Shown: one piece after another, positions 26,807 through 46,593 of the stretch | Layout: the number at the start of each line of letters is the position of its first letter | How positions within the stretch are numbered: the stretch's first letter is position 1 | Assembly: GCF_013388945.1 (NCBI RefSeq) | Contig: NZ_JACAEH010000004.1 | Coordinates: 363,754 to 427,753, forward strand | Length of the DNA stretch: 64,000 nucleotides | Reading direction: 5' to 3' | Source: Nitrososphaera sp. | GTDB lineage: Archaea; Thermoproteota; Nitrososphaeria; Nitrososphaerales; Nitrososphaeraceae | Made by a program: the position numbers and the translations under genes | Notes under the pieces: model-generated | The model's database searches: none | What the model saw: only the letters and a program-made list of their open reading frames with translations | What the model was told of the DNA's origin: nothing

Positions 26807-27643
26807 TTGAAGATAGGCCCGGTCGAGATCGGCGCAGGCTCGCACGTAAAGGTGATGGGCATAATCAACGCAAGCCCCGAGTCTTTCTACAAAAGGTCAG
26901 TCAGGACGGGCGCGACAGAGATAGCGCAGGCGGCAAGGGAGATGCAGGAGGCAGGCGCGCACATCATCGACATCGGCGCCATGTCAACTGCGCCGTACCT
27001 TGAGACAGTCATTCCCGTCGAGGAGGAGACAAGACGCATGACGGAGGCGATAGGCGCAGCCAAGTCTGCCTGCAGCCTGCCAATCTCGGCAGACACGCCC
27101 CGCGCCGAAGTAGCGCAGGCGGCAGCAAAGGCCGGCGCGCACATGATAAACGACGTGACCGGCCTGAAGTATGACGGCAAGATGGCAAAGGCAGCCGCAA
27201 AGGCCGGCCTGCCTGTCATCGCCGGCGCCTACAGCAGCGCGCCTGTAAAAGGCGACGTCGCCGGCACGCTTGCCGCGCTGAAGGAGAGCATGGTGATTGC
27301 CAAAAAGGCCGGAATAAAGGATGTCATAGTCGACCCGTCGATTGGCTTTTTCCGAAGCGAGGGCAAGAACCCCTTTTTCACGAAAATGACCGACGTGCCG
27401 TGGTACGCCCGCGACCTGCAGGTTCTTTCTAACCTGGACAAGCTTGCCCGGCTTGCGCCCGTGTGCGTCTCTGTCTCGAGAAAGTCGTTCATGGGCCACC
27501 TGCTGGGAGTCGACGCCGACGAGCGCCTTGCGCCCTCGATAGCTTGCGAGATAATGTCGGCAATAAACGGCGCCAGCATCATCAGGACCCACAGCGTCAA
27601 GGAGACGGTGCAGGCTCTTGCGATGCTCGAGCTTTTGCGCTAG
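26807..27643 (+). CDS. folP: Dihydropteroate synthase (TTG start assumed)
   Basis: VKVMGIINASPESFYK, IIDIGAMST, PISADTPRAEVAQAA, INDVTG. Confidence 0.85.
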   Translation: MKIGPVEIGAGSHVKVMGIINASPESFYKRSVRTGATEIAQAAREMQEAGAHIIDIGAMSTAPYLETVIPVEEETRRMTEAIGAAKSACSLPISADTPRAEVAQAAAKAGAHMINDVTGLKYDGKMAKAAAKAGLPVIAGAYSSAPVKGDVAGTLAALKESMVIAKKAGIKDVIVDPSIGFFRSEGKNPFFTKMTDVPWYARDLQVLSNLDKLARLAPVCVSVSRKSFMGHLLGVDADERLAPSIACEIMSAINGASIIRTHSVKETVQALAMLELLR

Positions 27644-27720
27644 CTGGGGCTTTGTAAAAAAAAGTCCGCCTTAAAAGAACCAATTCTGCGCACGAGATTG
27701 TTTTTGCCTCCTGCCATCAT

Positions 27721-27770
27721 GCAAAATTGTATCATTTTTTCGTGCTCAAAATGTTACATGATGTAACATT
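27721..27770 (+). promoter_or_regulatory. Three-half-site hairpin/palindrome element, copy 1 (between folP and guaB)
   Basis: TGTATCAT-TTTTTCGTGCTCAAA-ATGTTACA-TGA-TGTAACAT followed by a T tract; matches the 45373-45414 copy in spacing and spacer. Confidence 0.6.
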
Positions 27771-27935
27771 TTTTCTGCAGGTAGAAAAGGGGTTCGGGAC
27801 CTGTCCGGATTGGGCACAGAGTCCGACTCTGGCTTTGTAAATGTGCAGGCAGAGGCATCGAGAGGCGGCTTTTTTTAAGCCGCTAGCTGGCAAACGCTTA
27901 TAACACTTCTTGCCGACTAGACAGCAAGGGAATAG

Positions 27936-43001: not shown

Positions 43002-44281
43002 CTGCGCTTCCCCCTTGCCTTTACGGCCTCGTAGTGGTTGGGCAGGCCCTCTGCAGTCGCCATCTCTCTCACGGCCTTTTCCACCTTCGCAAGGCCGGCC
43101 TTTGACACCTTTACCCTGTTCACCAGTTTTACAAAGTCAAGCACCGATAGCGACGCTCTTGATTTTGCAAAGCCAAGCGTCGGAAGCACATGATTTGAGC
43201 CAAGCGCATAGTCGCTTGCAGACGACGGGCTGTCGGGTCCGACCAGCACAAGGCCGGCAGACCTGAACTTTTTCGCAACCGTATCGGCCCTCTTGCAAAT
43301 GACTTCAAGGTGCTCGGGCGCAAACTCGTCGGCAAACTCTATGCACGCCTTTTCGTCGGCGCAGACTGCGGCAAAGCCGTTTTCGCCGAGGCTTTTTGCA
43401 ACGATGTCAGACCTTGCTATCTGCGGCAGCATCCTGTCAACTTCAGCCTGAACGCTTGACGCCAGCTTTTGCGACGCGGTGACAAGCCCGCACACCGTAT
43501 CTGGGCTGTGCTCTGCCTGAGAGATGAGGTCTGCGGCCACAAGCCTCGGGTCCGCAGACGCGTCAGCATATATCAAAAGCTCCGTCGGACCGGCCACCAT
43601 GTCGGTGGACGCGACGCTTGCCGCCGCAAGTTTTGCCGCAGTCACGAACATGCCGCCGGGACCCGCTATCTTGCTCACCGGCCTGATGGACTGCGTGCCG
43701 TACGCAAGCGCCGCTATTCCCTGCGCGCCGCCGGCCTTGTAGAATTCGTTCACGCCACAGATGTCTGCAGCGACCAGCGTGAGCGGGTCGATGCTGCCGT
43801 CCCTTGTCGGCGGCGAAATGGCGACAATCCTCCTGACGCCTGCGACTTTGGCCGGCACCGCGCACATGACGACAGTGCTTGGGTAGCGCGCCTTTCCGCC
43901 CGGTATGTAGCAGCCGACGCTTGAGACGGGCGCAAGCGCCCTCTCGATGGCGACGCCCTCTGATCTTACTTTGATTCCGCGCAAGCGTTTTGCGACTGCA
44001 AGCTCGCTCTTTTCAAGGCGCGCCTTCATCAGCTTCAATGCCTTGATCTGCTCTTTTGTCACCTTGCAGTACGCGTCCTTTATCTCCTGTTTTGTTACAG
44101 CAAGCGACTCGAGCCTGACGCCGTCGAATTTTGCAGTGTAGTCGATGACGGCCGCGTCGCCGTGTTCCTGCACGTCGCGCATTATGCCTACTGCCTGTGC
44201 CATCAATTCATTGGAAATGTTAACTGACTTGCGCATCCCTGCAGCGGCTGACGCCGGCTCGGTTACGTCCAGGATCTTCAT
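42998..44281 (-). CDS. hisD: Histidinol dehydrogenase
   Basis: GCYIPGGKARYPSTVVM, AGPGGMFVTAAKL, AGPTELLIYAD. Confidence 0.95.
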   Translation of the reverse strand: MKILDVTEPASAAAGMRKSVNISNELMAQAVGIMRDVQEHGDAAVIDYTAKFDGVRLESLAVTKQEIKDAYCKVTKEQIKALKLMKARLEKSELAVAKRLRGIKVRSEGVAIERALAPVSSVGCYIPGGKARYPSTVVMCAVPAKVAGVRRIVAISPPTRDGSIDPLTLVAADICGVNEFYKAGGAQGIAALAYGTQSIRPVSKIAGPGGMFVTAAKLAAASVASTDMVAGPTELLIYADASADPRLVAADLISQAEHSPDTVCGLVTASQKLASSVQAEVDRMLPQIARSDIVAKSLGENGFAAVCADEKACIEFADEFAPEHLEVICKRADTVAKKFRSAGLVLVGPDSPSSASDYALGSNHVLPTLGFAKSRASLSVLDFVKLVNRVKVSKAGLAKVEKAVREMATAEGLPNHYEAVKARGKRR

Positions 44282-45255
44282 GAGTAGCCGTCCAGGTTTA
44301 CCTCGTCAAGCGGCAGTATCTGCCTTGGCTCGAGCACGACTATGCCCTGCGCCAGCTTTCTCATCTTGGGGACTATCTTGATGAACTCGCGCTTGTCGAT
44401 TACCGTGTTGACTCCAAACCAGCCCTCCTCGGAAAGCGGGCTCACAGTCGGCCTCTTTAAGGCCGGCAATGATTTGAGGAGCTTGTCGAGGTTCTCCTTC
44501 CTGACATTGACAAACAGGTGCAGCTTTTTCCTGCCCTCCACCACGCCTTTGAGCAGCGCGACCATGTCGGCTATCTTTTCGCGCTTTGCCGCGTCCTTTA
44601 GCGACTTTTTGTTTGCGACAAAGACTGCCGTCGACGTCGCTACCGTGTCGATTATCTTCAGGTTGTTCTGCGCCAGCGTCGTTCCTGTCTCGGTGATGTC
44701 GAAAATCGCGTCAACGTCTTCAGGAGGCTTTGCCTCAGTCGCGCCAAACGAGAGGAATATCTCGACCTTCTTGTTGTCGCCCACGCGAAGCCACGGCGTT
44801 ATTATGGTCGGGTCAGAGTCGCCGTAGTGCTTTTTGTACGCCTTGGTTGCCTTGATGTACGCCGACGTGGTCGTCAGGTACTCTGCAGAAAAGCGGAGCG
44901 TCTTTTTCTTTTTAGCAAAATCGTCAATCAGAGCGTCCAAGCTGTCGTAGGGAAAGCTGTTCGGAATCGCTATCACCTGGTTGACCCTGCCGATCTCAAG
45001 GTCGAGCAGGACCTCGACGTCTGCCTTTGCCTCCTTTATCCAGTCCCTACCTGTTATGCCAACGTCGTAGAACCCCTCCTGCACGTATGTCGGTATTTCC
45101 TGCGGCCTGAGGATCTTGGTCTCTATCTCGGGGTCGGACAGCTTGACCCTGTAGGTGCGCCCACGGCCGCTTACCGTCTGGTAAGCCTGCTCGAGGAGCT
45201 TGAACGTGACTTCCTCTATGCTACCCTTTGGAACCGCAAATTTCACAGTGGGCAT
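44278..45255 (-). CDS. hisG: ATP phosphoribosyltransferase (long form)
   Basis: VKFAVPKGSIEEVTFKLLEQA, DVGITGRDWI, DIVDTGTT-like DITETGTTLAQNNL, C-terminal regulatory domain. Confidence 0.92.
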   Translation of the reverse strand: MPTVKFAVPKGSIEEVTFKLLEQAYQTVSGRGRTYRVKLSDPEIETKILRPQEIPTYVQEGFYDVGITGRDWIKEAKADVEVLLDLEIGRVNQVIAIPNSFPYDSLDALIDDFAKKKKTLRFSAEYLTTTSAYIKATKAYKKHYGDSDPTIITPWLRVGDNKKVEIFLSFGATEAKPPEDVDAIFDITETGTTLAQNNLKIIDTVATSTAVFVANKKSLKDAAKREKIADMVALLKGVVEGRKKLHLFVNVRKENLDKLLKSLPALKRPTVSPLSEEGWFGVNTVIDKREFIKIVPKMRKLAQGIVVLEPRQILPLDEVNLDGYS

Positions 45256-45372
45256 TGGCAGATGCTCAAATCGGTCTATCGGATATATATCTTGTAGTAG
45301 GTTGTTGAGGCGGCATTAAGACTGTATTTGCGGCAAGTCAGCATTCTGTCAGCAAGCCTTTCCAGTGGAAAT

Positions 45373-45420
45373 ATGGTGCATTGTGCACCATTTTAAGCAC
45401 GAAAAAATGGTGCAATTTTT
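45373..45420 (-). promoter_or_regulatory. Three-half-site hairpin/palindrome element, copy 2 (between the HMGR gene and hisG)
   Basis: Minus strand: CAAAAATTGCACCAT-TTTTTCGTGCTTAAA-ATGGTGCA-CAA-TGCACCAT; same spacings as copy 1. Confidence 0.6.
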
Positions 45421-45462
45421 GTGATTATCCCAAGTTGCCTCATCCAACGCTTGTCATAGCGC

Positions 45463-46593
45463 CTATTTGCCGAATTTCCGGGCGTGCAGCCTCATGTGGC
45501 CGGCCTGGATGCCCTCTGCAGAGAGCGCCCTTATTGCTGCCAGGTTCTGGGCAAGGCCTGCTGCCGCCATTGCCATCGCAAGCTCCTGCGCGCTCTTCAC
45601 GCTCATTATCTTCAGTGCAACCTTGGCAGTCGGGTTGACGTTTGCAACGCCGCCGACGATACCTACCGCCAACGGCAATTCGATCTCGCCGGCAAGGTCG
45701 CCTTCCTTTGTGCGCCACCATCTTGTCAGAGAACGGTAGGTGCCGTCGCGTGCAGCGTAGGCGTGCGCGCCTGCTTCGATTGCGCGAAAGTCCTGTCCTG
45801 TTGCCAGTGCAACGGCATCGATGCCGTTCATCACGCCCTTGTTGTGCGTTACTGCGCGGTACACGTCGGAATGCGCAAGCGCGTACGCGTACAGGATGCG
45901 CTTTACGATTTTGCTTCCTCCAAGCTCGCCCTTGTCAAACACGGCCTTGCAGCGCACCATCCTCTTTGTCGCATAGTTTGAGAGAATCTTCAGCACCACC
46001 TCGCCGCCCGTTATCTCGGCAATCTTTGGCGCTATTGCCTCGCACATCGTGTTCACCGCGTTTGCGCCCATCGCGTCCTTGGCGTCTATCGTCAATTCAA
46101 CAACAAGCATCCGGCCCATCCTGTTCCTGCTAGCGTCGCGCACTTCACGCGCGCCCAGGCCGATGGCAGCAACTGACTTGCTCTTTGCGTTTGCTATCGC
46201 AAGGATCTCCTTCTTTTTGGCAAGCACCTTTCGTCTTGCGCCGGCGACGTTTTTTACCGAAACGACCTGCACCTGGCCTATCATCAATGATCTGTCTGCC
46301 TTTGCGGTAAATCCGCCCTTTGCCCTTGCAATCTTGGCCGCCTTGCTTGCAGCCGCTATCACGGACGGCTCCTCTATCGCCATCGGCACAAGGCGCTCAA
46401 CGCCGTTTATCACGAAATTGGTCGCAATCCCGAGCGGGACGGACATGATTCCGACCGCGTTTTCGACCATCCTGTCCGCGCTCTCAAATGCCAAGGGCGC
46501 GCCAAGCGACGCCTTCTCCTCCTCGGAAAGCCCGACCGCGTTTTTGATAAAGTCGAGGCGCTCGTCCCTGACCATCTCGTAGAACTTTTTCAT
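45463..46593 (-). CDS. Hydroxymethylglutaryl-CoA reductase, class II-like
   Basis: ENAVGIMSVPLGIATNFVINGVERLVPMAIEEPSVIAAAS. Confidence 0.85.
   Translation of the reverse strand: MKKFYEMVRDERLDFIKNAVGLSEEEKASLGAPLAFESADRMVENAVGIMSVPLGIATNFVINGVERLVPMAIEEPSVIAAASKAAKIARAKGGFTAKADRSLMIGQVQVVSVKNVAGARRKVLAKKKEILAIANAKSKSVAAIGLGAREVRDASRNRMGRMLVVELTIDAKDAMGANAVNTMCEAIAPKIAEITGGEVVLKILSNYATKRMVRCKAVFDKGELGGSKIVKRILYAYALAHSDVYRAVTHNKGVMNGIDAVALATGQDFRAIEAGAHAYAARDGTYRSLTRWWRTKEGDLAGEIELPLAVGIVGGVANVNPTAKVALKIMSVKSAQELAMAMAAAGLAQNLAAIRALSAEGIQAGHMRLHARKFGK

Follow-up and report, generated by a model that had tools for sequence, protein, structure and literature searches.

The window, a 64,000-nucleotide stretch of the genome of Nitrososphaera sp. 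(G000, 2.0 Mb), carries on its minus strand a short non-coding element between the genes for HMG-CoA reductase (HMGR) and ATP phosphoribosyltransferase (hisG). The following features were assigned at this locus:

45463-46593, minus: gene for HMG-CoA reductase; about 57 nt separate its stop codon from the core downstream
45356-45421, minus: stand-alone repeat unit (copy 2), whose 66 bp are 98.5% identical to those of another copy in the genome (L010)
45407-45414, minus: half-site 1, TGCACCAT, read from the sequence
45392-45406, minus: frozen 15-nt core, TTTTTCGTGCTTAAA
45384-45391, minus: half-site 2, ATGGTGCA, inverted, based on the sequence and the arm-agreement test
45381-45383, minus: 3-nt spacer, CAA, of fixed length and free sequence among copies (about 0.3 bits)
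45373-45380, minus: half-site 3, TGCACCAT, based on the sequence and the arm-agreement test
45359-45371, minus: tail palindrome, TTTCCACTGGAAA, a recurrent module boundary in the repeat family
45281-45292, minus: TATA box of the hisG core promoter (AGATATATATCC); it lies downstream of the repeat, and relatives without the repeat retain it
44278-45255, minus: hisG, from the gene call

Positions 45373-45414 thus read, on the minus strand, TGCACCAT, TTTTTCGTGCTTAAA, ATGGTGCA, CAA and TGCACCAT. A sequence-only reading of the window had presented this element as the second of two copies, the other lying upstream of guaB, and had proposed that they form a regulatory link between histidine and purine biosynthesis. 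The strand and the 15- and 3-nt spacings shared by both copies were confirmed, as was the one-base difference between their cores. The first copy reads, on the plus strand, TGTATCAT, TTTTTCGTGCTCAAA, ATGTTACA, TGA and TGTAACAT. The statement that all three half-sites changed together is correct for copy 2 and only approximate for copy 1, where TGTATCAT and ATGTTACA pair imperfectly. The 42-nt architecture stands, whereas the unit that is actually repeated is longer than had been claimed (45356-45421). Cores with two mismatches or fewer occur twice in the window, versus 0.13 expected.

The architecture is not confined to these two sites. With three mismatches or fewer allowed, it was found 24 times in G000 versus none with the reversed pattern, so the resemblance between the two copies is real and beyond chance. 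The core by itself occurs exactly 24 times, four of these at contig ends, where they amount to two physical copies. A covariance model (R1), built from 15 copies, recovered 24 full copies in G000, one degenerate tandem copy and partial copies at contig ends. Eleven full copies, including copy 1, are carried as cargo by a miniature inverted-repeat transposable element (MITE), and 13, including copy 2, are stand-alone intergenic units. Among the congeners, the model identified 18 diverged copies, distributed over 15 sites, in G011 (one contig of 2,833,868 bp) and one in G016; none was found in congeners including G008, G012, G014 and G015. At E<=1e-4, the element was present in none of the other genera of the order (about 54). 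Three weak g2 matches outside the genus were rejected, as they resemble similar coding sequence rather than the element, and two pattern matches in IMG/VR were chance occurrences of the 19-nt core only, with the arms absent, which disposes of viral carriage. The element was unmatched by the Rfam covariance models, and its identity with a known RNA family or riboswitch was rejected. Species differ in their consensus for the core (CGTGCTY vs YGTGCGT), G000 and G011 together holding nearly all the copies, so that statements at the species level rest on few lineages.

The guaB-side copy shows how part of this family has moved. It lies within a MITE placed between guaB and a gene of the pterin-binding enzyme family (folP-like):

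27639-27647, plus: left 9-bp target duplication, GCTAGCTGG, flanking the MITE
27648-27881, plus: 234-bp MITE carrying copy 1, with ends GGCTTTGTAAAAAAAA and GGCTTTTTTTAAGCC
27728-27769, plus: three-half-site core, copy 1, carried within the MITE
27882-27890, plus: right 9-bp target duplication, GCTAGCTGG, followed by the guaB promoter (CTTATAA, from 27891)

The same MITE, about 230 bp long, without coding capacity and with ends GGCTTTGTAAAAAA and TTTTTTACAAAGCC, carries all 11 cargo copies in G000. Its terminal inverted repeats begin with GGCTTTGT, which is of the IS903 type; the ends are termed IS903-like here, since IS903B has comparable inverted repeats (GGCTTTGTTGAATAAATC) and 9-bp direct repeats (PMC10569121). 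Target duplications of 9 bp are perfect in nine of the 11 MITE copies (examples are TTTGCAGGC, GCGCCACGG, TTGTCAAGC, TGTCTTCTC and the GCTAGCTGG duplicated ahead of the guaB promoter), carry a single mismatch in one and are lacking in one. Two of the nine perfect cases are split across contig ends (C7/C18 and C9/C3) and were paired via their duplications; the corresponding assembly gaps of G000 are explained by MITE copies, the 9-bp duplications GGCGCCTTC and TCAGGTAGC matching. At the orthologous folP-guaB junction, the sequence runs uninterrupted (...CGCTAG(..)CAAACGCTTATAA...) and the repeat is absent in G012, G007, G014 and G015, which shows that the MITE was inserted between the upstream gene and the guaB promoter. 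Paired GGCTTTGTAAAAAA ends at IS-like spacing were found neither in G000 nor in 17 congeners, many of which are incomplete.

The hisG side is comparable as regards its orthologs. In G011, G009, G016, G010, G002 and G006, HMGR is followed by hisG within a few dozen bases, the repeat is absent and the TATA box (AGATATATAT) overlaps or adjoins the HMGR stop codon. The HMGR-hisG gap is somewhat longer in G005, G014 and G015, likewise without the repeat. Since the TATA box lies downstream of the repeat and is kept where the repeat is lacking, the element is situated upstream of the likely hisG promoter as a lineage-specific addition. Judging from its absence in relatives, the hisG repeat is most likely an insertion specific to this lineage, placed behind the HMGR stop codon and ahead of the hisG promoter, and not an ancestral operator. 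Terminal inverted repeats of the GGCTTTGT type are absent around 45356-45421, and neither a target duplication nor a clean boundary is demonstrable for this stand-alone unit. The HMGR encoded in the window (45463-46593) ends about 40 codons before those of G014 and G015, as in G011.

The proposed two-copy switch joining histidine and purine biosynthesis was rejected in view of the 24 copies, their unrelated neighbors and the empty orthologous sites. A regulatory link between the pathways is likewise unsupported by the placement of the stand-alone copies, 8-9 out of 13 of which end beside a convergent stop codon and not at a promoter, and by the transposition of copy 1 within a MITE. Absence from the orthologous his and guaB regions, one of the two outcomes named beforehand as counting against the proposal, was what we observed; the other, a lack of further occurrences, was not, since many exist. 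What takes the place of the regulatory pair is a genome-wide repeat family, members of which were inserted in this lineage a short way ahead of two promoters of biosynthetic genes.

In the stand-alone copies, conservation is limited to a block of about 48 bp, from positions -15 to +33 around the core. The information content is 1.3-1.7 bits per base in the block and about 0.03 in the flanks; in the 3-nt spacer it again drops to about 0.3. Palindromes are present in the stand-alone units. Apart from the copy 2 pair, pairs of stand-alone copies share 84-154 bp (66-154 bp with that pair included) with sharp ends, often at CACTGGAAA. The genes next to other copies are diverse, encoding ThrRS, Rpb6, Hsp20, a PAC2 protein, a TrmB-type regulator, a biotin-carrier protein and a PBP-like protein.

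Taken together, multicopy dispersal, MITE ends with target duplications, absence from orthologous loci and conservation confined to one block characterize these sequences. They probably constitute a dispersed, non-autonomous mobile repeat family which in part hitch-hikes in an IS903-like MITE and has a recognition core. How the stand-alone units spread, and what recognizes the core, is what we infer beyond these observations. The family, apparently proper to the genus Nitrososphaera, would be non-coding, hairpin-forming and REP/PATE-like, with a dyad or hairpin as its core, and it exists in two forms: stand-alone intergenic units such as copy 2, and cargo of the IS903-like MITE such as copy 1. 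Their dispersal is most likely that of non-autonomous mobile DNA whose transposase is supplied in trans. The three half-sites and the frozen core may be the part read by a protein or by folded-strand machinery; recognition of this kind would account for arms that match within copies and differ between them. The other readings considered below are not mutually exclusive with this one or with each other, and the confidence placed in them need not sum to one.

It is possible, though we hold it only tentatively, that the units are host-maintained, REP/BIME-like hairpin/T-run terminators or transcript-end boundaries which are tolerated or selected between convergent genes. According to the ORF-based gene calls around the copies, 8-9 of the 13 stand-alone copies have a convergent stop codon at a distance of 70-100 nt from where the core starts, and several sit about 50-60 nt past a co-directional stop codon. 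In many copies, hairpins formed by arms 2 and 3 are followed by T5-T6, one copy in G011 is found immediately behind the SRP RNA gene, and the minus-strand RNA of copy 2 folds better than its shuffles (z -3.3). However, copy 2 ends with ATATTT and received no terminator call, for longer stretches of L107 (a G011 copy) and L023 (a MITE copy) folding did not exceed that of shuffled sequences, and mere tolerance of insertions at the 3' ends of genes predicts an identical placement. A role as a terminator or boundary is compatible with the dispersed-repeat account.

The half-sites have the consensus TGYANCAT, and the three are correlated. Among 22 distinct arm triplets, the mismatches between arms of the same copy numbered 29 versus 39.9 in reshuffled arms, 34 versus 45.5 and 29 versus 39.3 (p = 0.002, 0.001 and 0.004, respectively, before correction for relatedness). 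The covariation scores of the arm 1-2 and arm 2-3 pairings exceeded those of all 500 shuffles; the number of pairs changed on both sides was not beyond these shuffles in either pairing. The earlier proposal that selection acts on symmetry around a frozen core is thus supported, the block of about 48 bp alone being conserved and the arms agreeing beyond reshuffled ones. As regards a DNA dyad versus an RNA helix, the two pairings score alike, G-U pairs are rare and the central arm position is mismatched in 11-13 of 33 distinct rows. The arms resemble a DNA dyad with an added third half-site no less than they do an RNA helix.

Selfish spread alone would leave the near-invariance of the core unexplained. 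The 48-bp block might be a host-maintained site for a putative Nitrososphaera DNA-binding protein involved in chromosome organization or transcription-end control, the arms and core coevolving with the protein species by species and the site having been captured and spread by the IS903-like MITE; we regard this as rather unlikely. It is unlikely, too, that the copies form a family of operators in which a dimeric or tetrameric putative protein binds three TGYANCAT half-sites, with species-specific arms and core tracking the protein. The fixed 15- and 3-nt spacings, the sequence-free spacer, the near-invariant core, the within-copy arm agreement (p 0.001-0.004 before the relatedness correction), the scarcity of G-U pairs, which points to a DNA dyad more than to an RNA helix, and the species-differing core consensus are all consistent with such operators. 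Most copies, however, are located at the 3' ends of genes and not at promoters, their neighbors share no functional theme and the element is missing from most congeners. That the leaders of hisG and guaB contain an RNA switch alternating between the arm 1-2 and arm 2-3 pairings is very improbable: both pairings are possible and about equally supported, but the element lies upstream of the TATA boxes of hisG (45281-45292) and guaB (CTTATAA, from 27891), and hence outside both leaders if those promoters are used, the orthologous loci lack it and the central arm position is frequently mismatched.

The dispersed mobile repeat family favored here was compared with systems described in the literature. 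The carrier of copy 1 resembles IS903-group MITEs of the IS5 family in its GGCTTTGT ends, 9-bp direct repeats, length of about 230 bp and lack of coding capacity; the stand-alone units, including copy 2, differ in lacking such ends, and no autonomous partner was found in the genus on the basis of the ends. The PATEs of Haloquadratum are short, intergenic and transposase-free, with prominent palindromes resembling IS605-type transposon ends, and lack both terminal inverted repeats and target duplications; their copies are heterogeneous and terminal-only forms occur (PMC3119063). The present family is like them in consisting of short intergenic archaeal repeats with palindromes, no transposase and heterogeneous copies, whereas its motifs are absent from one TnpB-like locus in G000 (L138) and from the TnpA loci examined in G011. 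L138 (G000:C31:20500-23600), read by eye, is a TnpB-like coding sequence that bears a terminal palindrome of its own. The likeness to REP/BIME elements and their RAYTs (PMC2817692) lies in the dispersed extragenic palindromes, compensatory arm changes, species-specific sequence and modular or tandem arrangement. Here, however, there is no GTAG-type head, no RAYT/Y1 protein in G000 and a total of only 24 copies, and three half-sites with a fixed 15-nt core stand in place of a single palindrome. No match to the Y1 transposase (PF01797) was found in G000 and the Y1 transposases of G011 are all broken; with the family motifs absent at the loci examined, mobilization by IS200/IS605 or RAYT enzymes appears unlikely. 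BOX, SPRITE and ERIC-type repeats (PMC10969869) are likewise modular, non-coding and terminator-like or hairpin-forming, but they are bacterial and unrelated in sequence to the Nitrososphaera family. The combination of a frozen core with matched yet interchangeable arms is unusual among intergenic repeats. As sources of MITEs in archaea, a review gives Sulfolobus, Halobacterium, Haloquadratum, Desulfurococcus and "several other archaeal genomes", naming no thaumarchaeon (PMC10969869), and the words MITE and miniature are absent from a 2019 survey of thaumarchaeal mobile elements (PMC6563490). Our literature search found no account of such a repeat family in ammonia-oxidizing archaea.

Some further features of the copies and their surroundings were observed. 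TATAAAAGAACTAAT, considered as a possible fixed promoter of the element, is found in several different settings and is inverted in L113 and L114. A strand polarity bias of the G011 copies along the chromosome, apparent by eye, was discarded, hand-counted runs being close to expectation. Short relatives of the type TATAAAAGAACTAATT...TTTCCACTGGAAACGACCCCC without the three-half-site core are present in L058, L060, L062, L064 and L068; several of them abut the stop codons of convergent genes, and a similar one occurs in G015 (L162). In G011 (L109:1165-1479), two repeat copies in tandem come immediately after the archaeal SRP RNA gene. One gap between divergent genes is filled in both species (L012:1400-1620 in G000 and L113:1400-1720 in G011): in the former by a MITE flanked by TGTCTTCTC, in the latter by a non-MITE copy in reversed orientation with CTGTCCTA repeats on its flanks. 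This may reflect either an ancestral insertion or a preference for the target. Lastly, an apparently non-coding block of about 170 bp is shared at 77% identity by G000 (L142:3668-3839) and G011 (L106:1230-1401). It has no Rfam match at the gathering threshold and is possibly a candidate RNA; a repeat copy adjoins it in both genomes, and this shared block suggests that some copies are old and have been kept vertically.
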